Assembly: GCF_023149135.1 (NCBI RefSeq)
Contig: NZ_JAIWJX010000002.1
Coordinates: forward strand, 1,860,001-1,924,000
Length of the DNA: 64,000 nucleotides
Origin: Fictibacillus marinisediminis
GTDB taxonomy: Bacteria; Bacillota; Bacilli; Bacillales; Fictibacillaceae
Reading direction: 5' to 3'
Shown: piece by piece, positions 19,222-39,311 of the stretch
Numbering within the stretch: position 1 is the first letter of the stretch
Layout of the letters: every line of letters starts with the position of its first letter
The notes under the pieces: generated by a model
Told to the model about the DNA's origin: nothing
Database searches by the model: none
Seen by the model: the letters and a program-made list of their open reading frames with translations, nothing else
Program-made: the position numbers and the translations under genes

Positions 19222-19249
19222 TATATAATAAGTATAATTGAAAAAAGTA

Positions 19250-19342
19250 ACCACAGGGGGAGTCCCAAACAGGGGCTGAGAGGGGAGTACACTCCCGACC
19301 CTTTGAACCTGAAGCAGGATCATGCCTGCGTAGGAATGTGGA
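19250..19342 (+). promoter_or_regulatory. TPP (THI-box) riboswitch
   Basis: The thi-box signature is clear: GGGGAGTCC, then GGGCTGAGAGG, then CCCTTTGAACCTGA and GCAGGATCATGCCTGCGTAGG. Closing helix P1 is CCACA (19251-19255) with TGTGG (19337-19341). TPP binding is known to fold this element so that a downstream terminator forms. It controls thiT-thiN. Confidence 0.96.
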
Positions 19343-19360
19343 GTCGCAGTTGTTAACGAT

Positions 19361-35500: not shown

Positions 35501-36163
35501 GCGAGGAAGAAAGTCAAATTGATCAAACTCGCGATAGAAGAACTCGGCCTGGTGAACCTTGGTGCCATCGAAGAGTATGAACGCGTATCGCAGCGTTTTG
35601 ATTTCCTGACAGAACAAAGAGCGGATCTCGTAGAAGCAAAACAGACACTGCATGGAGTCATCGATGAGATGGACGAAGAAATGAAGAAGAGGTTCGAGGA
35701 GACGTTCACAAATATCCGCTCACATTTCGGCCAGATTTTCAAAGAGCTGTTTGGCGGAGGAAGGGCAGATTTATCTTTAACCAATCCAGAAAACCTGCTG
35801 ACAACCGGCGTGGATATCCTTGCTCAGCCTCCAGGTAAAAAGCTGCAGCATCTTGCCCTATTGTCCGGCGGAGAGCGGGCGCTGACCGCTATTGCCCTGC
35901 TGTTTGCCATATTGAAAGTCCGTCCTGTTCCTTTCTGCATCCTTGATGAGGTGGAAGCCGCACTTGATGATGCCAATGTCAGCCGCTATGCGAGCTATTT
36001 GCGAACGTTCAGCAAAGAAACTCAGTTTATCGTCGTTACCCACCGAAAAGGAACAATGGAGGAAGCGGACGTGCTTTACGGCGTTACGATGCAGGAATCC
36101 GGGGTCTCCAAACTTGTTTCCGTCAAGCTGGAGGAATCAAGGGATCTCGTCGGGGCAAAGTAA
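32594..36163 (+). CDS. smc: Chromosome segregation SMC ATPase
   Basis: 1189 residues. With ScpA and ScpB it forms bacterial condensin. N-terminal Walker A VVGPNGSGKSNISDAVRW (about 30-45), a long coiled coil (about 170-500), a hinge (about 500-680, with GIEGAIAELISVP and GGSMTGGSVK), a second coiled coil, and the C-terminal head with signature LLSGGERALTAIALLFAI and Walker B FCILDEVEAALDD (about 1115). Complete. RBS AAGGGGGATTAAG. Confidence 0.97.
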   Translation: MFLKRLDVVGFKSFADRINIEFVPGVTAVVGPNGSGKSNISDAVRWVLGEQSAKSLRGSKMEDIIFAGSDNRKPLNVAEVTLTLDNEDQHIPLEYNEISVTRRVYRSGDSEYLLNKQQCRLKDIVDLFMDSGLGREAYSIIGQGKIEEILSSKAEDRRKIFEEAAGVLKYKTRKQKAEQKLQETQENLNRVEDILYELEGQVEPLKIQASIAKDFLEKKEELQQIEVALTVFEIEELHEKWEKQSTLVEELKNKDFALSSKVKNEEASLERARADIQALDESIDELQQSLLVASEELEKLEGKREVLKERKKNYHQNKESLKQQIQTLKKKSEELQAASTEGTKIFGEQKKELRSLRSQLKEEENRLSIIELDLEAELERIKSDYFENLNSQASIKNEIRYLSDQQNQQQFKSSRLDQEHEKYVAERERVTSDKKDLLVKAKEAEENIQSHLKQYAGLKQQLEQKEKENEEKQSKLYQAYQFIQQFKSKKEWLESMQDEYQGFMQGVKEVLKAKGTVLQGIEGAIAELISVPADIETAIETALGGSMQHVVTQSEKDAVAAIAFLKKKKFGRATFLPLSVIKGRFISPSDISLVASHSAYVGVASQLVTGDSKYETIIANLLGNIVIAKTIEGANEIAKILRYRYRIVTLEGDVVSAGGSMTGGSVKQKNSSLLGRQRELDTVTGKLEKMEQQTAVIEEQVKDSKTAITELRSQLESFREEGENSRLKEQSVKSRLREIEIEEKNLNDRLSLYDREKNSYHSEQSTITERIKELQISLERNVKDAKSLEDQIEQLDARKKDQQTSKEEIQQSATALKIKIAEKDQQTANQEEKLERIQMELREVNDQLKETEQDFWMLEEEMNSNSSGEEVLDGHIGKKRQDKNSVLQLISQRRQERLTVYQQVEDRDRELKESKRILKQLNDALRTEEVSINRLDVELDNRLTHLREEYELSFEGAKGQFQLTMEAAEARKKVKLIKLAIEELGLVNLGAIEEYERVSQRFDFLTEQRADLVEAKQTLHGVIDEMDEEMKKRFEETFTNIRSHFGQIFKELFGGGRADLSLTNPENLLTTGVDILAQPPGKKLQHLALLSGGERALTAIALLFAILKVRPVPFCILDEVEAALDDANVSRYASYLRTFSKETQFIVVTHRKGTMEEADVLYGVTMQESGVSKLVSVKLEESRDLVGAK

Positions 36164-36194
36164 TGTATCATGTATGAATTTGAAGGAGGAACCT

Positions 36195-37181
36195 ATGAGC
36201 TTCTTAAAACGAATAAAAGACAAATTCACTTCTCAAACAGACTCTGTATCTGAAAAATTCAAAAGCGGACTGGAGAAGACGCGAACTTCTTTTTCCACAA
36301 AAGTCAATGACCTCGTTAAGCGGTACAGAAAAGTTGATGAAGATTTTTTCGAGGAACTGGAAGAAATTTTGATCAGTGCCGATGTAGGGGTCCATACGGT
36401 TATGGATCTCATTGACAAATTAAAGGACATCGCGCGTACGAGAAACATCCAGGAAACAGAAGAACTGAAATCCGCGATCTCAGAAACACTCGCTGGAATG
36501 CTCCATAAAGGAGAACAGGACGGCTCACTGAACCTTCAAACAGAAGGCATGACGGTCATCCTTTTTGTCGGTGTAAACGGCGTAGGGAAAACGACGACGA
36601 TCGGAAAACTTGCTCATCAGTTGAAACAACAAGGGAAAACCGTGATGCTTGCTGCCGGGGACACATTCCGCGCAGGAGCGATCGAGCAGCTTGAAGTCTG
36701 GGGGCAGCGTGCAGGCGTGGATGTTATCAAACATCAGGAGGGATCCGATCCTGCAGCCGTTATTTTTGACAGCGTAAAAGCAGCCAAATCCAGAAATGTG
36801 GATGTTCTGCTGTGCGATACTGCAGGAAGGCTGCAGAACAAAGTTAATTTAATGAATGAGCTTGAAAAAGTGAAACGCGTTATCGAACGGGAAGTGCCGG
36901 GAGCACCGCATGAGGTATTGCTTGTCGTTGATGCGACGACTGGACAGAACGCGATGAGCCAGGCGAAGATATTCAGCCAGTCCACAAATGTTTCAGGTCT
37001 TGTACTTACTAAGCTCGATGGTACAGCCAAGGGCGGAATTGTCCTCGGCATCCGTAACGAACTTGATATCCCTGTGAAATTTGTCGGACTGGGTGAAAAA
37101 ATCGACGACCTGCAGGCTTTTGATCCTGATCAGTTTGTCTACGGACTCTTTTCTGGATTAGAGGAAGAAAAAGCGGAGTAA
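36195..37181 (+). CDS. ftsY: Signal recognition particle receptor FtsY
   Basis: 328 residues. It is the membrane-bound GTPase that docks SRP-ribosome complexes. A short N-terminal amphipathic region (MSFLKRIKDKF), an NG domain with P-loop GVNGVGKTTTIGKLAH, DTAGRLQNKVNLM and TKLDGTAKGG. The start follows AAGGAGGAACCT; the frame upstream to 35943 lies inside smc. Followed by a terminator. Confidence 0.97.
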   Translation: MSFLKRIKDKFTSQTDSVSEKFKSGLEKTRTSFSTKVNDLVKRYRKVDEDFFEELEEILISADVGVHTVMDLIDKLKDIARTRNIQETEELKSAISETLAGMLHKGEQDGSLNLQTEGMTVILFVGVNGVGKTTTIGKLAHQLKQQGKTVMLAAGDTFRAGAIEQLEVWGQRAGVDVIKHQEGSDPAAVIFDSVKAAKSRNVDVLLCDTAGRLQNKVNLMNELEKVKRVIEREVPGAPHEVLLVVDATTGQNAMSQAKIFSQSTNVSGLVLTKLDGTAKGGIVLGIRNELDIPVKFVGLGEKIDDLQAFDPDQFVYGLFSGLEEEKAE

Positions 37182-37630: not shown

Positions 37631-37954
37631 ATGCTGGATAAGACGACGAGAATTAATTATCTTTATGACTTTTATCAGTCCTTGCTGACACCGAAGCAAA
37701 AGAATTACATGGCTTTTTATTATCTGGATGACTTTTCCCTTGGAGAAATCGCTGAACAATATAATGTAAGCCGCCAGGCCGTTTATGATAATATAAAACG
37801 GACCGAGGCGATGCTTGAAGAATACGAGGAAAAACTCGGTTTATTTGCGAAATTTCAGGAACGCGATCAGTTACTTTCCAGATTAAAAGAACTGCTCGGA
37901 AATTCGTCTGATAAAGTTCTTGAGATCATTGATCGCCTTGAAAACATGGAATAG
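37631..37954 (+). CDS. ylxM: YlxM, helix-turn-helix SRP-associated protein
   Basis: 107 residues, family length. It has a sigma-region-4-like helix-turn-helix: [27 protein letters not shown]. YlxM/P13 proteins are co-encoded with ffh throughout Firmicutes and in streptococci modulate SRP GTPase activity; whether it binds DNA is unclear. Fourteen bases separate it from ffh. Confidence 0.92.
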
Positions 37955-37968
37955 GAGGCGACAATACG

Positions 37969-39311
37969 ATGGCATTTGAAGGATTAGCCGACCGGCTTCA
38001 AAACACCTTGCAGAAAATCCGGGGCAAGGGTAAGGTAACAGAAGCGGATGTAAAAGAAATGATGCGTGAAGTCAGGCTTGCACTATTGGAAGCCGATGTT
38101 AACTTCCGGGTAGTAAAAAATTTTATCAAGCGAGTGACAGAACGTTCCATAGGTCAGGAAGTGCTGAAGAGCCTTACTCCAGGCCAGCAGGTTGTTAAAG
38201 TCGTTCACGAAGAGCTTACTGCTCTATTGGGCGGAGAACAAAGCAAGATCGCTGTCAACAACCGGCCGCCAACCGTCATTATGATGGTCGGGCTGCAAGG
38301 GGCAGGTAAAACGACGACAACCGGGAAGCTTGCAAATCATCTTCGCAAGAAGCATAACCGCAATCCTCTCCTGGTGGCTGCCGATATTTATCGTCCTGCA
38401 GCGATTCAGCAGATCGAAACACTTGGCAAACAGCTGAGTCTTCCTGTTTTCTCAATGGGGACAAAGTGAGCCCGGTTGAGATCACGAAACAGGCACTGGC
38501 TAAGGCAAAGGAAGAGCATCATGATTATGTTCTCATCGATACGGCAGGACGCCTTCACATTGATGAAGAACTGATGGATGAGCTTCAAAAGGTCAAAGAA
38601 CTGGCAAATCCCAATGAAATTTTCCTTGTGGTTGATGCCATGACCGGGCAAGACGCCGTTAATGTTGCCGAGAGCTTTAATGAGCAGCTTGGATTAACGG
38701 GTGTCGTACTGACCAAGCTTGATGGAGATACTCGCGGCGGTGCTGCACTTTCCATTAAAGCAGTGACAGATCTCCCGATTAAGTTTGTCGGTATGGGAGA
38801 GAAGATGGATGCGCTAGAACCGTTCCATCCAGACAGAATGTCCTCCAGGATTCTTGGAATGGGTGATGTGCTGACACTTATTGAAAAAGCACAGACGAAC
38901 GTTGACGAAGAAAAGGCAAAAGAACTGCAAAAGAAGATGCGGGACATGTCTTTTACTTTCGATGATTTCCTTGATCAGATGGGGCAGGTCAGAAACCTCG
39001 GCCCTCTTGATGAGCTGCTTAGCATGATGCCGGGCGCGAACAAGATGAAGGGCTTGAAAAATGTCTCCATAGATGAGAAACAGATTGGCCATGTCGAAGC
39101 TATCATTCGATCGATGACCAAACTCGAAAGAGAACAGCCGGAGATCATCAACGCTTCAAGAAGAAAAAGGATTGCGAAAGGGAGCGGACGGACCGTACAG
39201 GAAGTAAACCGCCTCATCAAGCAGTTCGACGATATGAAGAAGATGATGAAACAAATGTCCGGTATGATGAAGGGCAAGAAAAAAGGCGGAATGAAATTTC
39301 CGTTTATGTAA
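37969..39311 (+). CDS. ffh: Signal recognition particle GTPase Ffh, interrupted by a -1 frame change
   Basis: Two frames together give the complete SRP54 protein (about 447 residues, B. subtilis 446). Frame one, 37969-38469 (166 residues), holds the N domain and P-loop GLQGAGKTTTTGKLANHL and stops after FSMGTK. Frame two, from 38466, continues VSPVEITKQAL with DTAGRLHIDEELMDE, TKLDGDTRGGAALS, and the Met-rich M domain ending KKKGGMKFPFM. Moving back one base at AAAG (38463-38466) joins the two without gain or loss of residues compared with B. subtilis. Ffh is normally essential, so a one-base sequencing deletion is the likeliest cause; recoding or true mutation remain possible. Confidence 0.9.
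38463..38469 (+). other. Frame-change site in ffh
   Basis: Bases AAAGTGA: in the zero frame AAG is followed directly by TGA; after a one-base slip to AAA the next codon is GTG and the conserved sequence resumes. A GGGG run lies 5-8 bases upstream. Confidence 0.85.

Follow-up and report, generated by a model that had tools for sequence, protein, structure and literature searches.

The split ffh gene in an assembled Fictibacillus marinisediminis genome is very probably an indel error in the sequence

Results

The ffh locus

In the window, the whole 64,000-nucleotide stretch of Fictibacillus marinisediminis DNA analyzed here, the gene for Ffh (SRP54), the GTPase of the signal recognition particle (SRP), lies on the plus strand in two overlapping pieces. 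The first frame (37969..38469) opens with an ATG at 37969 and continues for 166 codons, ending in FSMGTK before a TGA stop at 38467-38469. The second (38466..39311) is one frame over and runs from a GTG at 38466 to a stop ending at 39311, encoding 281 amino acids. Pfam assigns to the 5′ piece the N domain (SRP54_N) and the opening portion of the GTPase domain (SRP54 model, positions 1-63 of 196), and to the 3′ piece positions 67-196 of the same model followed by the signal-peptide-binding domain (SRP_SPB). The N, G, and M domains of Ffh are therefore all present and in order, spread over two pieces, and the cut falls inside the GTPase domain (PF00448). Both pieces match the ffh family model TIGR00959 (5′ piece, 4e-65, 220.3 bits; 3′ piece, 1.8e-120, 402.7 bits). 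Because each is partial, neither reaches the family cut-off of 473.2 bits, and the locus holds no single continuous frame above it.

Just upstream, an open frame at 37631..37954 (plus strand) encodes a homologue of YlxM (NF045758, 116.2 bits, cut-off 80); ylxM usually neighbors ffh. Further upstream on the plus strand, an SRP-type GTPase domain at 36552..37151 has no stop inside and sits within the open reading frame 35943-37181, which we take to be ftsY. The locus resembles the Ffh/SRP54 family (TIGR00959; PF02881, PF00448, PF02978) in its three Pfam domains, their order, and the ylxM gene just upstream; unlike the family, the assembled frame is broken within PF00448. A family search of the genome found no second ffh; besides the two ffh pieces it matched the GTPase gene taken as ftsY and a further SRP-type GTPase at 1936027, presumably FlhF. 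The SRP RNA of the genome is full length (218.5 bits).

A whole Ffh on record and the reading frame in relatives

The nearest named proteins to Ffh belong to Fictibacillus species (among the best 120 listed of about 8000 scored). A further match, P0001, is an unbroken Ffh of 447 amino acids. The 5′ piece is identical to residues 1-166 of P0001 at 164 of 166 positions, with mismatches at residue 51 and at residue 165, which lies at the junction, and the 3′ piece is identical to residues 167-447 at all 281 positions when the GTG is read as valine (280 of 281 if the start is read as methionine). Together the two pieces share 445 of 447 residues with a nearly identical whole copy of the protein that is recorded elsewhere. 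A sequence-only reading of this DNA had proposed that ffh is split here by a frame change; the open reading frames, the Pfam domains, and the match of the two pieces to residues 1-166 and 167-447 of one 447-residue protein bear this out.

P0001 is recorded on six contigs, the longest of 4,516,968 bases, which exceeds every contig of the window's genome (4,565,559 bases in four contigs, the largest 4,354,756), and it is not encoded letter for letter by the window. Its source may be a different strain or a separate assembly of this one. The window's own assembly is scored as 100% complete and 1.75% contaminated and is thus not grossly poor.

The second difference from P0001, at residue 51, lies away from the break. 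The codon (window 38119-38121) sits in an A/T-rich stretch and reads as N, vs D or E in all 118 full-length relatives; either a further sequence error or a genuine substitution may lie behind it.

Relatives carry whole copies of ffh. In 58 of 59 relative genomes the aligned part of ffh has a length that preserves the frame, and the flanks of the break site lie in one frame in each of the 29 relative loci read (L006-L034). Of the named loci, 78 of 79 have their best matches to both pieces in a single frame, a count that leaves out one of the 80 (L112, cut by a contig end) and includes one that holds only residues 61-165 of the first piece (L099). The single exception among the 59 genomes, G041 (L031), has its break near residue 62 (local 1686), and in Paenibacillus pini JCM 16418 (L073), the exception among the 79 loci, ffh is broken near residue 124 (local 2376); the latter, too, is another site than the one seen here. 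These breaks are perhaps further sequence errors. Falling at differing residues in differing assemblies, they look like scattered accidents and not like a conserved device.

Compared with the same bases in two sister species (G005 and G003), the window's sequence is one base shorter. The alignment gap falls at the end of a G tract (38457..38460, plus strand), just upstream of an A tract (AAA, 38463-38465). The sequence-only reading had blamed a single A missing from the A tract through a sequencing or assembly error. Error as the cause is supported by the whole P0001, by the frames of the relatives, and by the survey of broken genes described below; the A tract as the site does not stand, since the gap aligns to the G tract.

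Frame breaks elsewhere in the assembly

Scans of the window's genome against one other genome separated the two poorly. One counted 8 vs 7 split pairs, and another frame-changing gaps in 30 of 169 vs 35 of 172 genes; a third, against G005, gave 13 vs 10 split pairs, with 10 vs 4 labelled internal. These unpolarized counts, on which overlong start calls reaching into leaders and compensated gaps weigh, show little or no excess in the window's genome, and their cases were judged by alignment only in part. A cluster of three adjacent broken genes that the scans suggested near G000:C2:1,827,600-1,831,100 reduced to one, murB: alignments inspected by eye showed that at the first gene a third species agrees with the window's genome, and that the second case lies in a leader before the ribosome-binding site.

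Since the two-genome scans gave no clear answer, we polarized the test and relied on that instead. The comparison took a 600-kb stretch of the window's contig together with its 600-kb counterparts in G005 and G003; the probes for each genome were genes whose agreement between the other two extended over 90% of their length. Start artefacts included, the window's genome had 7 flagged frame breaks among the 280 genes found from 288 probes, G005 had 0 among 277 (from 299 probes), and G003 had 1 among 289 (from 372), a difference with a Fisher P of 0.0024 (7/280 vs 1/566). Alignments inspected by eye attributed one of the seven cases, before a gene we read as rpsO, and the lone G003 case, before a gene we read as rimP, to leaders included by overlong start calls. 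With these removed by eye, the outcome being already known, the counts are 6 of 280, 0 of 277, and 0 of 289; six events are a small count, and Fisher P is 0.0013, or 0.0039 with ffh also left out. The window's assembly thus carries an excess of similar breaks over its sister genomes.

The six broken genes encode asparagine synthase, a DegV-family protein, pyruvate carboxylase, MurB, Ffh, and a 629-residue protein without an NCBIfam match at 1e-20. All six breaks lie in or beside short single-base runs; relative to both sisters, the window's genome lacks one base at five of them and has two extra bases at the sixth. Apart from ffh, they fall on the window's contig (G000:C2) near 1614831, 1672360, 1786570, 1830533, and 2130367, all outside the window. 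Within it, ffh is the sole frame-split gene among the 48 probe genes, itself included, so that the earlier impression that every other gene in the window is intact held as far as it was tested.

The sharpest control is murB. By family search, the murB near G000:C2 1830533 is the only copy in the genome and lies in two pieces in two frames; set against it, two whole 302-residue MurB records match the second piece at 99.0 and 99.5% and the first at 96.1%. In the pyruvate carboxylase gene near G000:C2 1786570, the frame changes some 50 residues short of the C terminus. The finding that a MurB record and P0001 are each placed on a contig of 4,516,968 bases suggests one other assembly in which ffh and murB are both whole.

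Origin of the split

With the sum of this evidence, we consider it very probable that the split of ffh is an indel error in the assembled sequence and not biology, and that the bacterium carries one whole ffh and makes a normal SRP GTPase of 447 amino acids. At a short single-base run the assembled sequence is one base shorter than in relatives, a shortfall that shifts the latter two thirds of the gene into a different frame. We infer that the length changed in the record and not in the chromosome, with a read or consensus error as the cause. According to a study of long-read assemblies, errors in such assemblies are mostly short indels associated with homopolymers (PMC12007338). The breaks seen here are like the gene-fragmenting indels described there in being short length differences in or beside single-base runs and in affecting several conserved genes of one assembly.

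A true frameshift mutation in the sequenced isolate, either in a cell that survives without full-length SRP or in a mixed culture, is improbable. Ffh is essential in B. subtilis. The full-length SRP RNA and the open gene read as ftsY argue against the loss, and the mutation would have to be accompanied, in the same isolate, by breaks in the only murB and in pyruvate carboxylase; a bypass of SRP would leave the murB break unexplained. An assembly with leftover indels is a much likelier explanation than a cell in which ffh, murB, and pyruvate carboxylase are all broken. In favor of a mutation, the protein also departs at residue 51 from a position that is otherwise D or E, and loss of SRP is described as survivable in Streptococcus mutans and, through suppressors, in E. 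coli (PMC8299109). A study of Clostridioides difficile, another Firmicute, scored both ffh and ftsY as essential (PMC12548448), and the excerpts of three further papers (PMC8881573, PMC6827917, PMC3814617) yielded no direct test of ffh essentiality.

Programmed -1 frameshifting, in which tRNA-Lys would move back by one base on A-AAG ahead of the TGA, restoring full-length Ffh, is more doubtful still. Slippage of one tRNA is a mechanism of frameshifting that the base order at the break, A AAG TGA, would permit, and the product would have 447 amino acids with residue 165 changed. Residue 165, though, is D in 116 of 118 full-length relatives, and the zero frame contains, by eye, no slippery heptamer X XXY YYZ, the motif of two-tRNA frameshifting. 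The RNA downstream of the break folds at chance level (z 0.18 over 95 nucleotides, 103 of 200 shuffles as good or better, in a fold without pseudoknots), and of the 108 relative loci containing both pieces, not one is broken at this position. One search of the open-licence literature returned no paper that combines ffh, programmed frameshifting, and the signal recognition particle. We hold equally little by a combination of the two, in which the isolate truly has a broken ffh and its sole source of Ffh is an infrequent -1 slip of tRNA-Lys at A-AAG ahead of the UGA, with very low SRP as the result.

Least credible of all is a naturally split SRP54 whose two parts would be separate proteins, translated by coupling where the stop and the GTG overlap as GTGA. 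Such an overlap is cheap: of 1270 single-base deletions made in silico in a sister ffh, 538 lead to this kind of stop, many sharing one stop. The split also divides the GTPase domain. Among the matches listed (the best 120 of 8000 scored, about 91-290 amino acids), the closest protein to the first piece is 88% identical and no near-identical short piece appears, although absence from such a list is weak evidence. Neither programmed frameshifting nor a naturally split Ffh found any support.

An indel error in the assembly, the explanation we prefer, makes this locus a caution and not a discovery: in a genome scored as 100% complete, around 2% of the tested conserved genes are broken (6 of 280). 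Six breaks per 301,746 tested bases, roughly scaled to 85% of the genome, would amount to some 77 broken genes. At such a rate, a gene that appears missing or split in this genome needs a check against sister species before it is given a biological reading.

Two further features were recorded along the way. A biotin-carboxylase-like match at G000:C2:1810414-1811754 (L213) has one TAA inside. The window also contains a TPP riboswitch at 19246-19353 (74.9 bits), an ordinary element.
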